Of a DNA stretch of 64,000 bases, positions 21,151 through 46,561 are shown piece by piece. The first letter of the stretch is position 1; the number at the start of each line of letters is the position of its first letter. The stretch is from assembly GCA_021234155.1 (NCBI GenBank), contig JAJEKV010000102.1, positions 1,048,456-1,112,455 of the forward strand, in the 5' to 3' direction. The stretch is from Isoetes taiwanensis (taxonomy: Eukaryota > Streptophyta > Lycopodiopsida > Isoetales > Isoetaceae). Made by a program: the position numbers and the translations under genes. The notes beneath the pieces were generated by a model. The model was not told where the DNA came from, did no database searches, and was given only the letters and a program-made list of their open reading frames with translations.

Positions 21151-21379
21151 ACTCGAACTCATTGTAATGCCATTTCGACTCTCACCAGAAGTTCGGTAAG
21201 ACCATTGAGCAAACTCTTTCGGGCGATCCTGAATTTAAAGAGGTGTAGGGAGGCCAGGACTGATAAGAAGCATGATACCTTTCGCCATTATAAGAAAGAT
21301 GGTAATCTCCTCTATTACAAGCATAATTATATGTAACAAAGACATCCAGAGTCTGAAAGCTCATTCTCCGTGACACACA

Positions 21380-22640
21380 TAATAATCCCATAGCCGAATA
21401 TGCTAGGTTTATGAAGACCTATTTTAAGATAAGGTCTGATTACTTTTGGCCAGGTATGAAAAAACATGTTGCAAAGTACATCAAGCAGTGTCATCTTTGT
21501 CAACAAACGAAGGCCGAATAGTTGTGAATTTCAGGCATGTTAGAACCATTGGATATTCCCAATGCAAAATGGGAAGTCATCACTATGGATTTCATCGTGG
21601 GCCTTCTACGAACTTTGAGGGGATTTGATGCTCTAATCATAGTGGTGGACAAGCTCTCCAAAATGGCACATTTTCTACTGCACCACCGACACTACGTTGG
21701 ATACCGCACTCCTCTTTGCAAAGGAAATCTTCCGTCTCTATGGAATGCCGCGCACAATAATTTCAGACAGAGATCCAAAGTTTGTTAGTGCTTTTTGGAC
21801 AGATTTTTTCAGCATTATATAAACTAAGCTCTCCATTAATACGACATATCACCCTCAAACGAATGGGTAGACAGAACGCACCAACCACATGATTGAAGAT
21901 ATGCTATGTAATTATGTCTGGAATAAGCACTCAAAGTGGGTAGACTATATCTATTTGGTCGAGTTTGCCTATAATAGCACCAAGCAGGAGTCTTCATGAA
22001 TGTTTTCCTTTATAATAAATTATAGTTATCAATATCTAACTCCAGACATGTGGCACAACCCTGTTTCCATGTTGAAGTATCTCAACAGTTGCTCACCGAT
22101 ATGCAAGCTTTGGTTGAGGAAGTCCGTGGGTATTTATTAGCCGCCAGAAGCAGACAAAAGAGTGTTACAGACAAGCACCATACACCATGTGAATTCCAGG
22201 TTGGGGATTTTCTTGTTTGAAAATTAAGGTCAAGCAGGCTAAGCTCAAGATTGAAAATTGTAAGAAACTAGCACCACGATGGGTGGGACCTTTTGAGATA
22301 ATCCAGCGAGTAGGGCCACAAGTTTATAAGCTAACTTTGCTCATATATCTAAAGGTCCATAGAGTCTTTCATGTAAGCCTTTCGAAGAAGCATCCACCAG
22401 ATCTTGATGAGGTACTAGATTAGATTCACCAACACTCTTGAAAATAACAGATGAGGCTCTTCTCGATCGCGCATATAGCAAATCTGAAGGGCCCAAATTC
22501 TACAATATTTGGTTAAGTGGAAACACTTACCCATAGACGATGCTACATGGGTCCTCAAGTCAGATCTAGATAAGGCTTATCTAGACTTTATCAGGCAGTG
22601 CCAGGGTCATACCATCAACGATGCCATCAACTCCAACTTC
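21380..22640 (+). pseudogene. Gypsy B: integrase and chromodomain
   Basis: Zinc-binding remnant (FKIRSDYFWPGMKKH, CHLCQQTKAE), core start (WEVITMDFIVGLLRTLRG, VVDKLSKMAHF), then a stop-rich middle. At 22500-22600 is a readable chromodomain QYLVKWKHLPIDDATWVLK. Integrase joins the cDNA into the genome, and the chromodomain can direct it to marked chromatin. Multiple stops and frameshifts. Confidence 0.82.
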
Positions 22641-37313: not shown

Positions 37314-37318
37314 GGGAG

Positions 37319-38971
37319 TGTGACGCTCCCTACTAAATATACGGCACCCGGCCGTACACTCGGCAGGAAATCCCCCATCCGGTCCTTCAACCGCACGAGC
37401 CCTCCGTCTATCCCGCACTCTGAGAGGATTGTAGTGCGGGAAGGGGACACGAAGGTGTCTTGCGTGCCCTTCCCCTATGGGCTCCTATCACAGCGGAAGC
37501 ACAAACATCGTCAGAACTAGCAATAACTATACATCACACTACCTCGAAGGGTAGCTCATCCACATATCCATAGGTGCAAAGAACATAAACATATGCCATA
37601 AAACATGAGAGCTCCTACTCGTGGCTCCGACACATAAGGAAGTCGACTGACTGGATAGGCCTCAAGATAGAGCAGACCGAATCATGACAATGGCGGGGCT
37701 GGCATAAGACAATGGCTAGGGTTGACCACTCCATCCGTCCCTCCTGTGCATACATTGCAGATGGGCTCAATCAGGCTCTGGCATGACTCTAGCCTTCCGG
37801 ATACGTAATCCCATGGCATCCCCCATCGGGACTACTCCAGGTTGCATCTCCCTGGTCCGTTGAGGCAGGAAGGGTTGCATCTCCCCTTCCCGGGGTCTAC
37901 AGGCTCCTCGAGCGACTAGAGAATCGTGGCGACACACGATTCATACCCGACTGAACCCCCCAAAACAAGAGCCAAGCTGACACTTGCAACTCCTGAGAGG
38001 CAGGGCTGCAGCATTGCCCCAGGAGGTGTCGGACCCATGCTCGGCCCACACGAAGTGACCGACCATAAGTCTAGCCCACTATGGGATCCCCCGAAGCCCC
38101 CACTCGGCAGGGATCCTCCATCCGCGTTGCCTCTAGCCCCGTTATGTAGTGCTGAGTCACATCATAGCCTCCATAGCCCGGTGGGTTCCTATGCACAGGC
38201 CGCAACTAATAGGAACTAAGGGATCTAGACTAAGAGCATACTACATAATAGCTACTAGGTCTCTACCCCCCTTCCCAATACAAGAGGAGCAAACATGATC
38301 ACCCAACATCACATAACATCATATCATGATAACATAGTAAGAACATCTTAACCTAATCATACATATCTAACTTACAGTTAGGGTTCCTTGATTAGGGTTC
38401 GAGATGTTCAACAAAGGTTCTAGGATGGCTCTACTCTAGATACAATATACAGACCCATCTGGAATGCTAACTTCCAGATGAACTACTATGAACTCTACTC
38501 CACCTACCTGCTCCAGAAGCGCTTCCTCCCATCCCTGGTGTCTCCATTGCTCCTTGACGGGGTCGAGGTCGTGCTCCCTCTATGATCATACACACACTTG
38601 AGGGGCTGCCCGGGCCCAGCTATGCTACGACGAGCGATGCTCAAAACGGGGGTTTGAAAAGGTAGATGAGTGTTCAAAAAAGCTAGAGTCAGGGAAAAGG
38701 GTCTAGGGTTAGGGTTTGAGCCAATATAGGTGAGGGTCCACATGGGATGCCACGTGGCACCACTAGGATGGGGCCGTGTGGCGGTTGCCCAATAGGATAA
38801 GGTCATGTGGAAATGGGCCTTATCCTAAGGTTATCTAAGTTAACAATTAACTTAGATATGCACCCATTGCCACTTTCTAAGGTATACAAGGCTCCCAAAG
38901 ATGGAAGCTTGTATCGTGGATGGGTCCGAGAAATATAATGTATTTATGGCGATATTCCCTCGAACGCCACA
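37319..38971 (-). repeat. 3' LTR of gypsy D (left copy)
   Basis: In + coordinates it runs TGTGACGCTCCC to CGAACGCCACA. It is nearly identical to 42870-44498 apart from point changes and small indels, mainly in the last 200 bp. It contains TAGGGTTAGGGTTT (38704-38717), a telo-box pair. Confidence 0.92.
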
Positions 38972-39379
38972 TTCTCCCAAGGACAATGTTGTCCTCAGCA
39001 TTGCGCTAAGGTGACGAACCTATACTATTCCTGCAAAACAACATAAGTGCACAACTTCAATTTAACTTAATTGATCAACTTCCTTATTAAACAGTTTATT
39101 GTCAAAATTTAGGCTATATTTGCACTTATACAAAATTAGATAGCCTTACAAGGTTACTCCCTATAATAATTCAAACATTACTATAAGAGTTACTAGGGTC
39201 CATAATCTAAATCTAAATCATGGTTCCCCTATCTTCTCATAATGCGTCCCTCCTCGATGCTCGCTTCTCACTTGCCTGCACGAGTAGCACATTACGTTAG
39301 TTTAGTTAATAAATTTGTGGTTTTTTAGGGGACCACCCCCTTACCAATACCTTGCACTCGATCATGGCCCTTTCGGATT

Positions 39380-39740
39380 TGAGCTTAAGGACCATTTAAG
39401 ATGATCCCATCATCGCCCATGATCAAGTGCTACCTTGTACTCGGTTACCCGGTGCAGAGTACCCCTAGTGCATCATGCCCCAAGGGTTTTAAGCTAGGGA
39501 ACGTCTCACGATCCCATCATCGCGCATGATCACTTTGACCTTCACCATGACCCCCCTATGGCCAGGTGTGCGAGCCCCGCATCATGGCATAGGGAGCATC
39601 CGACCGATGTCCCATCATCGCGCACCATGCCTCCCTTCCTTTCTCCATGACCCTATTGGTCATGCGCACCTCTTGGTGCATGTTGGCCTAGAGAATGCCT
39701 TAAAGGCTTATCTCATCATCGCCTACATGTTCCAAGATTC
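39380..39740 (-). repeat. Degenerate ~100-bp tandem repeats in the 3' region of D
   Basis: The block CCCATCATCGCGCATGATCA or a close variant recurs near 39404, 39509, 39608 and 39712, a spacing of about 100 bp. It lies between the chromodomain stop and the LTR. No coding content. Confidence 0.7.
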
Positions 39741-39807
39741 TGGCATATGCATTCCACTAACTAGAATACATCTGCCAGAGCTAAGGCTAACTAAGAAACA
39801 TCTTAAG

Positions 39808-40176
39808 CTAACCTCCTGGCAAGTCGGGGTCGACCAAGTCGGAGACGACTCGCCCATCAAACTCCTTCATAAACTCTGGGTATTGCTTCTCCAAATCCTG
39901 CTTCAATACCCATGTCGCGTCTTCCACGGGCAAGTGTTTCCATTTGACCAAATACTGGAGGAACTGAGACCTCCTAGTCTTCTTGAATGACTTATCAAGA
40001 AGTAACTCAGGCACAATTTCAACTTGCTCTTCTGTCATTTCCAACAAAGTTGGAGTATCCAAGACCTCATCAGGGTTAGGATTGTGCCTTTTCAATAAAC
40101 TTACATGGAAGACTTTGTGGACCTTAAGGTGCGCCGGGAGATCCAACTTGTAGGCCTGAGAGCCCACCTTCTCCAA
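39808..40176 (-). pseudogene. Gypsy D: integrase C-terminus with chromodomain
   Basis: The minus strand reads KVGSQAYKLDLPAHLKVHKV, then FHVSLLKRHNPNPDEVLD (GPY/F-type region), then the chromodomain QYLVKWKHLPVEDATWVLKQ to FMKEFDGRV. Chromodomains of HP1 hold methyl-lysine in a three-aromatic cage. Here the Trp of KWK is present, but the residues after it are His-Leu and no N-terminal aromatic is obvious, as in plant chromovirus group II chromodomains. A frame break near 40176 separates it from the integrase core. Confidence 0.85.
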
Positions 40177-40341
40177 GATCTTGAATGGACCGGCCTACCT
40201 AGGGGCAAGCTTCTTACAATTCCCAATCCGAAGCTTAGCTTGCTTCACCTTGATCTTCAACCACACGCTGTCGCCTACCTTGAACTCCCTTACGGTTACA
40301 GTGCTCGCTTGGCTTCACTCTTACGCCGACTTCTTTCATTG

Positions 40342-41181
40342 CTAATAAGTACCCCTTACTTCTTCCACCGCTGCCGTGATATCTCCTAGCATCTGCTGGG
40401 ATACTTCAACCTTTGACACAGGATTGTGCCAAGTATCCGGGGTTAGGCACTGGTACCCGTAATTTACCATGAAGGGAGACATCTGGGATGACTCCTGCTT
40501 GGCACTGTTGTAGGCGAATTCTACCAAGTGGATGTACTCATCCCACTTGGATTGCTTATTCCACACATAACTTCTAAGCATATCTTCGATGATTCGATTC
40601 GTGCGCTCCGTATGGCCATCCGTCTGCAGATGATAAGCCGTGCTCATGGAGAGCTTCGTCTGAATGGTGCTAAAGAGGTCCTGCCAAAAAGCACTCATAA
40701 ACTTGGAATCTCTGTCTGAAGTTATCTCCCGAGGCATGCCATGGAGTCTAAAAATCTCCCTTACAAATAACTTGGCGGTATCTAATGCTGTGTCCGTAGT
40801 TCTGCAAGGTACAAAGTGTGCCATCTTAGATAATTTGTCTACGACAACCATTAATGCATCTTTGCCTCGTAGAGTTCGGGGAAGTCCTGTGATAAAATCC
40901 ATACTTACCACTTCCCATTTTGCATTCGGCACTGCTAAAGGTTCCAAGGCTCCCGGAATTCGAAGCTGCTCTGCCTTAGTCTGCTGGCACAACTGGCATT
41001 CCTGAATATATCTGGCTATCTGTTTCTTCATTCCTGGCCAGAAATAGCTACTTCGAATCTTGAAGTAGGTCTCCATAAACCCCGGGTGCCCTGCTATTGG
41101 GCTGTTGTGTGTGTCGTGAAGAATTAACTTCCTTACACCTGATGATTCGGGCACACACAACTTATGCTTATGGTACAACAA
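40342..41181 (-). CDS. Gypsy D: integrase zinc-binding and catalytic core
   Basis: A 279-codon frame open on the minus strand. H2C2 zinc-binding domain: LILHDTHNSPIAGHPGFMET, then CQLCQQTKAEQL. RNase H-fold core: WEVVSMDFITGLPRTLRGKD (first Asp), ITSDRDSKFMSAFWQDLF (second Asp), RTNRIIEDMLRSYV (Glu). The DDE triad is therefore intact. It inserts retrotransposon cDNA. The N-terminal side continues, with a frame change near 41160, into FKEVWESLSKEARTD and other sequence that would follow RNase H. As RT and RNase H are deleted, it could act only on cDNA made by another element. Confidence 0.85.
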   Translation of the reverse strand: MLYHKHKLCVPESSGVRKLILHDTHNSPIAGHPGFMETYFKIRSSYFWPGMKKQIARYIQECQLCQQTKAEQLRIPGALEPLAVPNAKWEVVSMDFITGLPRTLRGKDALMVVVDKLSKMAHFVPCRTTDTALDTAKLFVREIFRLHGMPREITSDRDSKFMSAFWQDLFSTIQTKLSMSTAYHLQTDGHTERTNRIIEDMLRSYVWNKQSKWDEYIHLVEFAYNSAKQESSQMSPFMVNYGYQCLTPDTWHNPVSKVEVSQQMLGDITAAVEEVRGTY

Positions 41182-41584
41182 GTTGCCTTCCTTCCTATAA
41201 TGCTTGAAGGCTTCCCGTTCCTTATCTGTTCTAGCCTCCTTAGAAAGGCTTTCCCATACCTCCTTGAAATCACCATATGATGGTAATGTTTCCTCAATTT
41301 TCTTGCCATACCCACTCGAAAGAGTAGATATAGCATTACAATGTGTTCTCGTCTCAAGGGGTCTTCTAGAGAGAGCCAGGCGCTCAAACGGCGCCTTCCT
41401 AATCAGGAGATTAGTACACTGTTGGAAGTGCCTAATCTCCTGAAAAATGTGGGCATGCCGAGAGTTAGGCCCATGGTGGACCTTCTTCGGCTTCTCCGGA
41501 CGTGGAGGTGGCGGCTTCGGCTGGTTCTTCTTCGGCCGGCCTCCTTTGACAAACCTCTCTACGTTCTGCTTGTAGTACCAGTCA
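41182..41584 (-). pseudogene. Gypsy D: gag-end / pol junction remnant
   Basis: Across frames the minus strand reads KAY, stop, EYLRHWTRYNDWYYKQNVER, then a Pro/Lys-rich linker (GGRPKKNQPKPPPPRPEKPK), then IFQEIRHFQQCTNLL. After a change it reads ETLPSYGDFKEVWESLSKEA, leading into integrase. The jump from Gag-like to post-RNase H sequence inside 400 bp marks the deletion of protease, RT and RNase H. Confidence 0.6.
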
Positions 41585-42313
41585 TTGTACCTCGTCCAGT
41601 GACGAAGGTACTCCTAGTACGCCTTCAGGCGGTGCTTGAATTCGCGTTCCCTCACGGAGTGCGAATGGCCGCTCGCCCACCTTCTGCTTCTTCACTACCT
41701 TCGGTGGCTTGGGCCACTTTGGGTAGGGTGGGCGTGCGTTGGGGTCTGAAGATTCCCCAACGACTTCGTGCTCCTCCTCCTCCCCGTTCTGCTCTTCCTC
41801 ATCTCCACCTCCTTCCCCCTCGTCCTCGTCAACTGCCTCGCGTCGGTGAGGTTCCTCGATCACGACGGTCCCGCGAGGCCTATCGTTTCTCCTCTTCGTT
41901 CTCCGCTCCTTCTCCCTAAGCTCCCTCTCCCTCTTCTTTCTCGCGGTTGTTTCTTCTGGCCACTCCGCCACCTTGTTCTTGCCCTTCTTCTTGGGTGAAG
42001 AAGGGCCCGGCTGCTCCATCTGGTGTTGCTGCTCCTGTTCTTCATCCTGCTCCTCCTCTCGGCCTGAGAGGTCACCCACGTGAACTATCTCGCCGGTCTG
42101 CTGGGACTGGGCCGCCGAAGAACTAATGCTGCTGGTAGGGCTGCCCTCCTCCGAAGGGTGGAAGGTGTCATCGGTGGAGGAAGACGCCTCGTCACCTGGC
42201 TTTGGCCGAAGGTGTGGCGGAACCTGCTTACCATGACGACCTGCTGCTACCTGTGCCATTGAGAGTGTGGGTCTCTCACCAAACTTCCTGGCTGTCTGCT
42301 TGGTGCGTGCCAT
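41585..42313 (-). CDS. Gypsy D: Gag-like protein with histone H3 tail at the N-terminus
   Basis: A 243-codon frame from ATG 42313. The frame is open 35 codons further upstream, but this ATG has A at -3 and G at +4. The protein starts MARTKQTARK, then FGERPTLSMAQV. After Met removal residues 1-9 equal mature histone H3 residues 1-9, including K4 and K9 and their arginines. Identity stops at position 10, Phe in place of Ser10. The rest is a Ser-rich stretch, an acidic/Gln stretch (GREEEQDEEQEQQHQ), two basic clusters that could be nuclear signals (SPKKKGKNK; KKRERELREKERRTKRR), a Glu/Asp/Gly run, and a Pro/Lys segment. It has no histone fold and no zinc knuckle. By position it is the gag start. 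A TGA ends it, and Gag-like sequence follows in another frame, so it may be truncated. Confidence 0.85.
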
Positions 42314-42856
42314 ATTTAACGATCTAGGAAATGGATGACGTAAGGCTGAGCAAGAGAGATAAGGTGGAGGAAAAGGTTGGGGGGAAATGAGGTGCTCTAG
42401 GGAATATTCTCTTACCATTAATATGCCTACTTATTAGCCCCCCTTATTAATTACTTCAATATAACTTAATTATTAATATATGTTTAATTATTAGTGTGTA
42501 TTTTTAATTTCGTATTATACTTTAAATTTTCAAATTTTCCTAATAGTTTGGAGTGTTAATTATGAATTTGCACCATTTTTCACTCAGGTCTCGGATTGGC
42601 ATGATTCTTCGACCCATTTTAGGTGAAATTTGATGCAGATGCATAATTTTCATTTCAAATTTACTAGAAGATGAATTTGACTCGTTCTTTTCTTCGTCTA
42701 ACACTTAACCTATTTTCGGACCCACTACTTAGGAGAAAACTTTTCGCCTATTTTTCGAGGTTCGATGGTGGAAATTTTCATTTCGCACCCTATCAGACCT
42801 GTTAGACTAGTTTCATGGTTATGGTCAGTGCTAGTTCCTGGTCAACCAAGAACTTT

Positions 42857-42868
42857 GCTCTGATACCA
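42857..42868 (-). other. Primer binding site of gypsy D
   Basis: On the minus strand TGGTATCAGAGC, one base inside the 5' LTR. It is complementary to the 3' end of plant initiator tRNA-Met, the usual primer for LTR retrotransposon minus-strand synthesis. Confidence 0.92.
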
Positions 42869-42869
42869 T

Positions 42870-44498
42870 TGTGACGCTCCCTGCTAAATATACGGCACCC
42901 GGCCGTACACTCGGCAGGAAATCCCCCATCCGGTCCTTCAACCGCACGGGCCCTCCGTCTATCCCGCACTCTGAGAGGATCGTAGTGCGGGAAGGGGACA
43001 CGAAGGTGTCTTGCGTGCCCTTCCCCTATGGGCTCCTATCACAGCGGAAGCACAAACATCGTCAGAACTAGCAATAACTATACATCACACTACCTCGAAG
43101 GGTAGCTCATCCACATATCCATAGGTGCAAAGAACATAAACATATGCCATAAAACATGAGAGCTCATACCCGTGGCTCCGACACATAAGGAAGTCGCCTG
43201 ACTGGATAGGCCTCAAGATAGAGCAGACCGAATCATGACAATGGCGGGGCTGGCATAAGACAATGGCTAGGGTTGACCACTCCATCCGCCCCTCCTGTGC
43301 ATACTTTGCAGATGGGCTCAATCAGGCTCTGGCATGACTCTAGCCTTCCGGATACGTAATCCCATGGCATCACCCATCGGGACTACTCCAGGTTGCATCT
43401 CCCTAGTCCGTTGAGGCAGGAAGGGTTGCATCTCCCCTTCCCGGGGTCTAGAGGCTCCTCGGGTGACTAGAGAATCGTGACGACACACGATTCGTACCCG
43501 ACTGAACCCCCCAAAACAAGACCCAAGCTGACACTTGCAACTCTTGAGAGGCAGGGCGGCACCATTGCCCCAAGAGGTGTCGGACCCATGCTCGGGCCAC
43601 ACGAAGTGACCGACCATAAGTCTAGCCCACTATGGGATCCCCCGAAGCCCCTACTCGGCAGGGATCCTCCCTCCGCGTTGCCTCTAGCCCCGTTATGTAG
43701 TGCTGAGTCACATCATTGCCTCCATAGCCCGGTGGGTTCCTATACCAGGCCGCAACTAATAGGAACTAAGGGATCTAGACTAGGAGCATACTACATAATG
43801 GCTACTAGGTCTCTACCCCTCTTCCTAATACAAGAGGAGCAAACATGATCACCCAACATCACATAACATCATATCATGATAACATAGTAAGAACATCTTA
43901 ACCTAATCATACATATCTAACTTACAGTTAGGGTTCCTTGATTAGGGTTCGAGATGTTCAACAAAGGTTCTAGGATGGCTCTACTCTAGATACAACATAC
44001 AGACCCATCTGGAATGCTAACTTCCAGATGAACTACTATGAACTCTACTCCACCTACCTGCTCCAAAAGCGCTTCCTCCCATCCCTGGTGTCTCCATTGC
44101 TCCTTGACGGGGTCGAGGTCGTGCTCCCTCTATGATCATACACACACTTCGGGGGCTGCTGCGCCAGGCTATGCTACGACGAACGATGCTCGAAACGGGG
44201 TTTCGAGTGCGTAGATGAGTGTTCAGGAGCTAGAGTCAGGGAAAAGGGTCTAGGGTTAGGGTTTGAGCCAATATAGATGCCACGTGGCACCACTAGGATG
44301 GGGCCGTGTGGCGGTTGCCCAATAGGATAAGGTCATGTGGAAATGGGCCTTATCCTAAGGTTATCTAAGTTAACAATTAACTTAGATATACACCCCTTGC
44401 CACTTTCTAAGGTATACAAGGCTCCCAAAGGTCGACTTGTATCGTGACGGGTCCAGGAATATACGTATTTATGGCGTATATTCCCCTGGAACGTCACA
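42870..44498 (-). repeat. 5' LTR of gypsy D (right copy)
   Basis: Pairs with 37319-38971. It holds the element's promoter by position. It carries the telo-box pair TAGGGTTAGGGTTT at 44251-44264, conserved with the left copy. Confidence 0.92.
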
Positions 44499-46561
44499 GG
44501 GAGGGTGGGTGGGTGGGTGGGGAATAGGAGACCAAGCCATCATCTAGGCATCTCCATTAAACACAAAACCAGAATACAATGCTGAAGAATAGAGGCAGCA
44601 AGAAACTATGGGTCAGTGGAGCGGGAGGAAAAAGCCAGTAGGAGTTCCACAGAGCTAGGATCAGAAGGATCCAGACCTAAGGAATGAGAACCCAACAGTT
44701 ATTGCTGAAGAGACGGGCAAACATAGCCATCCTTGGCTGAATCAGAGTGTCAATACCCATGACCATTAAGATGCCAGACCTAGAACAGATCAAGAACTTT
44801 TGGACAAAATCCTTTAAATCAAGCATGTCAACATCACCATCCAAGGCGTTCTAAAACCCTGAACACAAAACCTCTGCATGAAACAAAGAAAAACTCATCT
44901 AAATTAATAATGACGAATGACAAAGCAAATAAAAGGACTCATTGGTTTGTGGCATGACAGCTTTGAAGATGGACTCATCGTAAGACCTTGTCCACCAACC
45001 TAAAAGTACAAGTAATCCACAATAATCGTATCCCACTCTGCAGCATCATTGTGTAGCAAAGGCCACCACGGGGTTGACTCCCAATGAAAAAATTACCAAA
45101 GTATAGTAGGCTTGGCAAGCTTTAGCGAAAGAGAAAGCTTTGAACGTCAAGGCAAGAGAGAAAAAATAGTAGCTATTTGTTGAATGCCAAGACTGAGCAA
45201 AAGCATCAGGTAGACAAGGGTCTTCTGGAATTGGATGCCCACAAATAAAATTAGGAAGCAAATGGTTTATTTAAATTAGCGAAGCGATCCCACTAGGTCA
45301 ATGATGTGAAAAAACCTCAGGTGTCAAACTACAATCATCAAAATCCTTCAGTTTAGACAAGCAATTGGCCTACTGGTTAAGATTATGGGGGATCCATGCA
45401 GGTTTGAAGATGATACTATGGCGAAAACAAAGGGTAAAGGTTGGGGCACAAGAGTGGAGAGTGGCTTCTTCATTGAAATTGCCCTTATCAATATTTTGCA
45501 CACCATCTTGAGTTGGAGGGGCACCTATGACCTAGACAAATTGCACCCTTTTTAATCAATGAATAGGAAATAATTAAATATCATAAGAAAAGTACGTACA
45601 TTTATGGATTATATAGAGGTAAATCAAAATATTTAAAAAGCAAGAAATTCCTTGGAAATAGGTTTAATTTAATAATAACAATGGATATAAATGAAATTAT
45701 TTAAAACAAGAAATTTCATGGCAACAATCCTAATTTAATAAAACTTATCATACACTTCCAATAATGAACTTAAACAACAAGGAAATGACCTCTAAAATAT
45801 ATCCAAAATTTAATTTTCGAAAATTTAGCCATGAGTATAGGAAAAGACATACAAAATATCTAAATTCTGATCTAAATATATAAAGGTAGCCGTGAGAGTT
45901 TATTGCATTAAATGCAATATTCTTCATATATACCCTAGATGCTATACCTGGCGGGAAGACCATATGCCTGGCGTGTTATTTCGGGCAACCAAATATTCAC
46001 GTTAATTAGTGAGACCTAAATTTCTAATTATGCCTATATAAATCCAATTCACGCTCTCAAAATTCTCTATTCTTCCTTTCTTCATACGATTTGACGGTTG
46101 TGCTTCTGCTGTGTTTTGTTCCGCCCTCCTAGCGTGCTTGGATTTACATTTCCAGCCTCTTAGCATGCTTAATTCTTGGTGAGCAGGTTTCTTTTCAGCA
46201 ATTTTTAGCCTTCTGGGGTTTGCATGATTGGTTTCAGCAATTTCTAACCTTCTCTGATTGCATGCGAGCCTCATAAACTTACTTGAAGACTCTGTTGTTT
46301 TTTTCTCCACAGGTAAGAAAAAGCATCTGTAGCAGAGGCTACAAAGAATATCGGAACTCTACACGTTCAACAAAGGCCTCAGAATTCAGGGTTAGTTCTG
46401 ACTTAATTTTAAGATGCATGTCTATAGCAGGTTTAATCCAAGAAGAGAAGCTCAACGATCTTGCTCAAGGCAGAGGAAGCAGATGATGTTTATGAAAGCA
46501 AGCATAGCTTTTTATAAACTTCATCTGCTTCTTTTTGTTTCGAGTAAATCATTGAGTTTTT
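44499..46561. other. Intergenic, no gene recognised
   Basis: Starts with the GGGAG duplication and a GGGTG run, then a stray copy of the 46-bp repeat. The rest (44600-46560) is non-coding or unrecognisable, and 45540-46050 is strongly AT-rich. Confidence 0.5.

Follow-up and report, generated by a model that had tools for sequence, protein, structure and literature searches.

A predicted histone H3 variant encoded by a Ty3/gypsy chromovirus of Isoetes taiwanensis

The stretch of DNA examined here (the window; 64,000 nucleotides of Isoetes taiwanensis, contig JAJEKV010000102.1, positions 1,048,456 to 1,112,455) was found to include an internally deleted copy of a Ty3/gypsy chromovirus, a whole LTR retrotransposon copy on the minus strand (coordinates 37319 to 44498) bounded by a pair of LTRs with TG...CA ends. 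The 5' LTR (42870 to 44498, minus strand) shares 94.9% identity with the 3' LTR (37319 to 38971, minus strand) over an alignment of 1655, and the target-site duplication GGGAG is present on both sides of the element (37314 to 37318 and 44499 to 44503). A primer-binding site, TGGTATCAGAGC, presumed to be of the initiator tRNA-Met type, is located just inside the 5' LTR (42857 to 42868, minus strand). The LTR divergence (K2P 0.0353) corresponds to ~1.4 million years at 1.3e-8 substitutions per site and year, or 4.4 million years at 4e-9, the two rates used for LTR dating.

An open reading frame of 243 aa (41585 to 42313, minus strand) represents the remnant of a longer ORF, ORF1, and consists of an H3 tail and, after it, an acidic/basic insert that a frameshift near 41650 cuts short. 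ORF1 continues in a shifted frame (41377 to 41649, minus strand), which was matched by tblastn to residues 222–311 of an intact ORF1 (79%), and approximately the last 78 bases of this segment encode the start of an H3 fold (EIRHFQQCTNLLIRKAPFER). The ORF1 match stops at 41377 and is followed by integrase, placing the junction of an internal deletion at approximately 41376 to 41377 (minus strand). With this deletion, which extends from inside the fold into pol, the element lost the remainder of the H3 fold together with ORF2 and Gag, and presumably also the protease and reverse transcriptase (RT); no match to ORF2 or Gag was found inside the window copy. The integrase includes an H2C2 zinc-binding domain and an rve core (40342 to 41181, minus strand; PF17921, E 4.5e-20; PF00665, E 5.5e-10) and a C-terminal chromodomain (39808 to 40104, minus strand; PF00385, E 3.9e-12; PDB chromodomain, E 6.6e-7). 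With both a frameshift and an internal deletion, the window copy is dead. A tblastn search with ORF1 detected no H3 ORF elsewhere in the window. The window also includes a second, related chromovirus integrase (21327 to 22130; 64–71% identity to that of the H3 element) and a Gag-like stretch (167 to 796; 43% identity to the Gag of the H3 element).

Read on the minus strand from 42313, the sequence begins MARTKQTARKFGERPTLSMAQ... and the frame, which ends at 41585, has the N-terminus MARTKQTARKF. The initial annotation had drawn attention to the MARTKQTARK start, and this was confirmed, as was the identity of the nine residues after Met to H3 A1–K9 with Phe replacing Ser10. The corresponding codons (42284 to 42313, minus strand) are assigned from the window reading together with the conservation and selection described below, and the tail sequence would, as had been proposed, leave Ala as a free N-terminus and place K4 and K9 in register.

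The description of the protein as Gag-like was not upheld. A Pfam scan of the 243-aa ORF identified no gag or other domain, the sole match being Sec16 (E 0.037, below the cut-off), and no Retrotrans_gag or capsid domain was found in either form of the H3-bearing ORF scanned (P0001 and P0003). As the family also encodes a separate Gag, a Gag identity for this ORF was rejected. The statement that nothing after the tail is histone-like was contradicted by the fold start in the shifted frame of the window and by the complete fold in intact copies. A histone mimic, in the sense of a histone motif on an otherwise non-histone protein, was likewise rejected, and with it the reading as a short mimic on an unrelated protein, because the same ORF holds a complete H3 fold in intact copies. 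The tail is visible without a histone in the window copy because the frameshift and deletion removed the fold, a pitfall by which a broken copy made an element-borne H3 look like a short mimic.

The assembly from which the window derives (1,658,258,908 bases in 1110 contigs) was searched in six frames with the window protein. The search gave 152 matches from 10,661 first-look candidates, 150 of them scored, and most matches among those listed align from residue 1. From the matches listed, which are ranked by similarity to a query containing the tail, 108 copies (8 + 100) were read; 98 of them align from residue 1, all but one (97) with an ATG. In the 97 ATG copies, A1 is kept in 96, R2 in 92, T3 in 93, K4 in 97, Q5 in 94, T6 in 96, A7 in 78, R8 in 95 and K9 in 95. 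The start MARTKQT is present in 84 of the 98 copies and the tail is exact through K9 in 67, these 67 using 33 different DNA versions of the ten codons. Residue 7 is A in 79, Y in 14 and M in 3 of the 98. Residue 10 in the 97 ATG copies is F (49), A (16), Y (15), T (7), P (7), V (2) or C (1), and never Ser; these copies therefore lack the H3S10 phosphorylation switch beside K9, with Thr left in seven.

Retention of the tail does not fall with divergence, as MARTKQT was found in 22 of 25 copies with <60% identity to the window protein, 26 of 30 at 60–65%, 21 of 24 at 65–70% and 15 of 18 at ≥70%. With each of A1–K9 kept in 78 to 97 of the 97 ATG copies from this genome, the original argument that the match is not due to chance is borne out. 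Because this first sample had been ranked using a tail-containing query, a search with the fold only was run, and the first 20 matches absent from the tail-query listing were taken as a tail-independent sample. Eighteen were readable: 11 start MARTKQT (six exact through K9), one has a single substitution, and six differ strongly, most being frameshifted or rearranged in appearance (L150 reads MARTGETARR). The remaining two of the 20 had no recognisable start in 401 bases. One intact copy, L101, starts MARTKCTMKN.

Intact ORF1, examined in 42 copies, is 365–385 aa long and its C-terminus is a complete histone H3 fold. A PDB search retrieved 176 distinct sequences at E ≤0.001 (best E 1.4e-28, over residues 274–374), the best 60 of the 176 being histone H3 (one row named as a histone domain-containing protein), and Pfam identified PF00125 (E 4.3e-29). 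The tail and fold are separated by about 260–285 residues in which acidic and basic blocks alternate; in copy L004, the net charges by block are +3, -14, +12, -19 and +21, with the basic blocks at residues 109–150 (+12) and 191–285 (+21). Searches of protein sequences returned nothing at E ≤0.001, whether the query was residues 11–285 (2014 candidates) or an alignment of 13 rows covering roughly the same region (7981 candidates). A search with the whole of ORF1 gave 4410 matches, of which the best 120 cover ≤52% of the query. ORF1 thus has a core histone fold of the H3 type (PF00125, PDB H3) and an N-terminal ARTKQTARK tail, but lacks the canonical layout of ~136 aa with the tail continuous with the fold, so these comparisons identify it as a predicted variant histone H3 encoded by the chromovirus.

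One open frame reaches the fold in 43 of the 98 copies, 42 stop earlier at ≥200 aa and 13 are shorter. A real short isoform of 243 aa was rejected, although several copies share its C-terminal letters. The alternative frame is entered at different points in the copies examined, and the window's own frame slip was found in no other copy with the pattern tried, so the 243-aa frame is read as separate decay. That the ten residues match by chance, or that a histone gene of the host happens to lie beside the element, is hardly credible. Either reading could draw on the window copy, where the fold is missing and the tail looks isolated, but the tail region and insert are common to 97 copies, 43 of 98 read into the fold, and element genes adjoin ORF1 in five of the six copies in which flanks were read.

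Over 98 positions in five copies, the ORF1 fold is 57–61% identical to Arabidopsis H3.1 and 43–48% identical to Arabidopsis CENH3. Six residues do not vary among the 42 copies (C110, H113, K115, R116, D123 and L126) and four more (R63, R72, R83 and T118) are retained in 41; we take these positions to be H3–H3' interface and DNA-contact residues. Interface residues of the H3 type are kept in ORF1 copies, and the protein may assemble with H4 into nucleosomes. Other positions are altered: K56 is replaced throughout the 42 copies by Q, M or H, F84 is V, Y99 is E, and positions 87–90 are L, T/M, T and R (W once). Glutamine resembles acetyl-lysine at position 56. Residues 84–90, which presumably include the patch by which chaperones tell H3 variants apart, are heavily changed relative to canonical H3, and deposition of ORF1 by the host is uncertain because these residues, Y99 and K56 have changed.

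Capture of a CENH3 gene was considered and rejected, as there is no CENH3-type insertion in loop 1 in any of the 42 copies, where loop 1 has the canonical length, and the fold is closer to H3.1 than to CENH3. H53, F54 and N59 are common to the ORF1 fold and CENH3. A tree placed CENH3 beside the family that includes the window copy (group A) with weak support (40.9/71), a pairing read as long-branch attraction.

Selection was examined in 42 full-length ORF1s, namely the 45 frames of ≥340 aa minus L070, L075 and L090, which are without the fold end. The sample favours intact ORFs and window-like proteins, which lowers all of the ratios that follow, though the contrast between regions is robust to this. 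Pooled pairwise dN/dS, for which synonymous sites are near saturation, was 0.064 for tail codons 2–10, 0.055 for the fold, and 0.19, 0.19, 0.09, 0.13 and 0.12 for successive parts of the insert. For 96 low-divergence pairs, the values were 0.034 (tail), 0.160 (insert) and 0.090 (fold), and for 14 dissimilar copies retained after thinning they were 0.122 (tail; 0.050 for codons 2–7) and 0.047 (fold). Of 232 nine-codon windows outside the fold, a set that includes the tail itself, 91 have pN no higher than that of the tail, as do 80 of 83 within the fold; the tail is therefore not uniquely conserved within ORF1, and other parts are constrained too.

Silent and replacement changes were also assigned by parsimony on a tree of the 42 copies. 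On internal branches, 22 silent and no replacement changes were found in tail codons 2–7, 29 and 4 in codons 2–10, 201 and 31 in the fold, and 613 and 418 in residues 41–285, giving ratios of 0.044 for the tail and 0.046 for the fold. Terminal branches, which include decay after insertion, had 45 silent and 16 replacement changes in tail codons 2–10 and 304 and 107 in the fold; the ratios there are higher, at 0.069 for tail codons 2–7 and 0.106 for the fold. The tail and fold of ORF1 are under purifying selection and the insert is looser. The test named in the initial annotation, whether the tail is conserved under purifying selection, thus comes out in favour of conservation among the family copies of this genome.

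These ratios bear on whether ORF1 is a passenger, a fragment of a host gene caught by chance and of no benefit to the element, as has been proposed for many transduplications. Gene capture is common among plant transposons. In addition, H3 copies on hAT elements of Pseudocercospora fijiensis are described as inactivated by RIP (PMC6710886). However, replacement/silent ratios stay low on internal branches even where divergence is deep, and many diverged copies have full-length ORFs, which makes a passenger very improbable. Gene conversion with host H3 is disfavoured as the source of the ratios, as the fold is only 57–61% identical to plant H3 in the five copies compared.

The same data bear on a second possibility, that ORF1 acts mainly as a free decoy protein, its tail soaking up or redirecting host H3K4/K9 readers, writers or silencing factors, while the fold would serve only stability or nuclear transport. 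This lies close to the initial annotation, in which recruitment or titration of H3K4/K9 readers and tethering to chromatin were put forward as roles, and these are candidate functions of ORF1. The decoy reading is favoured by a constraint on internal branches that is as strong in the tail (0.044) as in the fold (0.046), and it accords with the loss of Ser10 in all 97 ATG copies and with the contexts of K14, K18, K23, K27 and K36, which by eye are gone from ORF1. A decoy would not need near-invariant H3–H3' and DNA-contact residues in the fold, and we consider it possible but on balance unlikely.

The genetic context of ORF1 was examined in six further copies (L109, L110, L111, L112, L113 and L114). 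Pooled over several copies, the features of a chromovirus (LTRs, primer-binding site, gag, RT, RNase H, integrase and chromodomain) were all found, and the carrier is a Ty3/gypsy chromovirus that encodes a Gag separately, ORF1 being an extra ORF ahead of gag and the first ORF after the primer-binding site. ORF2 (about 340–370 aa) lies downstream of ORF1 in five of the six copies. Gag adjoins ORF2 in four (L109, L110, L111 and L113), L112 having only a piece far downstream, and integrase is found downstream in three (L109, L110 and L113). The flank in L114, which adjoins the ORF1 of L097, had no match to ORF2, Gag or integrase. The L110 Gag was identified by PF03732 (E 4.8e-18) and also PF19259, and a single frame in L110 encodes the protease, RT, RNase H and the integrase zinc-binding domain; the chromodomain in L113 matched PF00385 (E 4.9e-11). 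LTR pieces of three other copies have K2P values of 0.017–0.024, and no LTR pair was found in the stretches examined for three of the six copies. A hAT transposon carrying a gene of the H3L type was rejected as the carrier, as LTRs, a 5-bp target-site duplication and a retrotransposon pol are present.

ORF2 (for example L112:709-1815:+; P0125) is conserved between copies, with homologous stretches in L109–L111 and L113. It had no Pfam match at E 0.01 and one PDB match (E 0.00026; chain SAKe6DEtal), with no stretch passing alone. Between ORF2 and Gag, residues 164–334 of P0124 (L110:6713-7714:-) are 86–94% alike in L111 and L112, and matched no Pfam family.

The position of ORF1, first after the primer-binding site in an element that encodes a chromodomain, and the two basic blocks in the L004 insert, would suit an architectural role as the nucleoprotein of a virus-like particle or pre-integration complex, binding element RNA or cDNA, with a methylated tail that may dock on the element's own chromodomain integrase. 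However, the Retrotrans_gag domain is found in a separate Gag protein, and the chromodomain looks, by eye, to be of the plant group II type. In chromodomains of this type the aromatic pocket is without Y24 and usually also without Y48 (PMC3350952), and how they act is described as not understood (PMC12786077). Such a role is doubtful.

A search of the genome with canonical H3 gave 9022 first-look candidates, of which 150 were scored. Among the 150 matches listed were 15 full-length H3 genes at 96–98% identity to Arabidopsis H3.1 (L126 is one), and a further 135 matches at 71–86%, mostly covering H3 25–135 and many in long frames. The equivalent search with H4 gave 69 first-look candidates, all of which were scored, and 43 matches, comprising 16 full-length genes at 99–100% and 27 partial or decayed pieces. 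First-look candidates are not copies (9022 for H3 versus 69 for H4), but the amplification is specific to H3, and H4 has not been amplified.

Twenty-five of the 135 matches were examined and form a sister group, group B (L121–L125 and L129–L148). Of five group B copies read across the ORF, four hold frames of ~410 aa from the ATG and have a different N-terminal domain and a near-canonical fold (for example L124:98-1336:-); the ORF start of the fifth, L125, was not found. In the three that were scanned, the fold matched PF00125 (E 1.2e-41 to 4.9e-41), and L124 had a PDB match at E 4.1e-51. In the flank of L124 (L127), RT and integrase are 80% and 81% identical to those of the first family, and in the flank of L122 (L128) Gag (51%), protease (46%) and integrase (70–77%) are also related; ORF2 in L128 is distant (23%, E 3.7e-8). 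In twenty further group B copies, chosen for long frames, only the start was read, and by eye A1 is kept in 19, T3 in 19, K4 in 19 and T6 in 4, while R2, Q5 and K9 are kept in none (for example MAITKSAPDP and MANTKSTVDP).

Group B elements have kept the H3 fold while the tail has eroded, and the tail is therefore not needed for the role of the fold there. Copies that lack the tail or show it drifting had been named as evidence against a tail with a function; within this genome the outcome speaks against drift within the family, and a sister group has an eroded tail. The inserts of groups A and B share no similarity and the tree leaves the two groups unresolved. However, P135, F54 (in four of five group B copies) and similar downstream genes are common to both, and group B starts with MA.TK. 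One capture is favoured by these shared features, and it is likely, from the sequences compared, that groups A and B derive from it.

The reading that we prefer, with a probability of about one half, is that the variant H3 encoded by ORF1 is a partner of H4 on chromatin of the element or the host, where it displays H3 residues 1–9 to readers. A host H3 gene would have been captured into the leader, downstream of the primer-binding site and ahead of gag, keeping the nine tail residues and the fold and gaining a long charged insert between them. The ORF1 protein would then enter the nucleus and pair with host H4, and H3-type complexes would form on element cDNA, new insertions or host chromatin. 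Nuclear entry, H4 pairing and complex formation are suggested by the slow evolution of the tail and fold, the faster evolution of much of the insert, and the near-invariant H3–H3' and DNA-contact residues. Through the tail, K4 and K9 may be offered to readers and writers of chromatin, perhaps including the element's own chromodomain integrase, and the element could benefit overall from an altered chromatin state or a favourable integration target.

A more specific proposal, tentative and in our view rather unlikely, is that the element makes its own nucleosomes, from an H3 with an acidic chaperone-like insert and host H4, on cDNA or new insertions, where a K4/K9 tail without Ser10 would mark them for the chromodomain integrase or block silencing. 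If so, the element would supply both the carrier of a histone mark and a candidate reader. Retrotransposons are the usual targets of histone-based silencing, and a family that carries H3 suggests action on chromatin with a histone of its own. The H3 has been carried through many rounds of transposition with a modifiable tail and a fold both under selection, and because the fold survives beside an eroded tail in the sister group, a division of labour between the two is testable.

Compared with canonical plant H3, ORF1 has the H3 fold and a tail corresponding to H3 1–9, but unlike plant H3 and CENH3 it has about 260–285 residues between them. In the open-licence literature, searched at title and abstract level and with preprints outside its scope, no histone encoded by an LTR retrotransposon was found among the papers listed, and the word 'histone' is absent from the main text of PMC13317346, PMC7264820, PMC3726574, PMC5408684 and PMC6431247. 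The nearest precedents in the literature searched are H3-bearing hAT elements of fungi (PMC3538342, PMC6710886) and a gypsy family of orchids that encodes an RNA demethylase (PMC9289625).

Ogre elements have their extra ORFs upstream of gag and, to our knowledge, are not chromoviruses. They are plant gypsy elements with one or two extra ORFs, as here, described in the source as of unknown function (PMC6431247). The Ty3/gypsy elements of Phalaenopsis carry an AlkB/2-ODD ORF, and are also plant gypsy elements with a fixed extra ORF of host type that is thought to act on host control, although that ORF encodes an RNA demethylase and not a histone (PMC9289625). The same study screened 121 angiosperm genomes and reported 15 extra domains, with no histone among those named in the main-text section (PMC9289625).

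In Pseudocercospora fijiensis and its relatives, hundreds of H3 copies are reported on hAT elements, and in P. fijiensis all but the original are described as inactivated by RIP; unlike the element described here, the carrier is a DNA transposon and H3 was not kept by selection (PMC6710886). The hAT element of Pyrenophora tritici-repentis has an H3-like ORF, H3L, in which the N-terminal tail is interrupted by insertions and the fold has diverged so far that it fits neither H3 nor CenH3; its 26 copies are very similar, drift being suspected by the authors (PMC3538342). H3L resembles ORF1 as an H3-like ORF on a mobile element, but is carried by a fungal DNA transposon, whereas ORF1 is carried by an LTR retrotransposon with at least 150 diverged copies, and in ORF1 tail residues 1–9 are kept and both tail and fold are under purifying selection.
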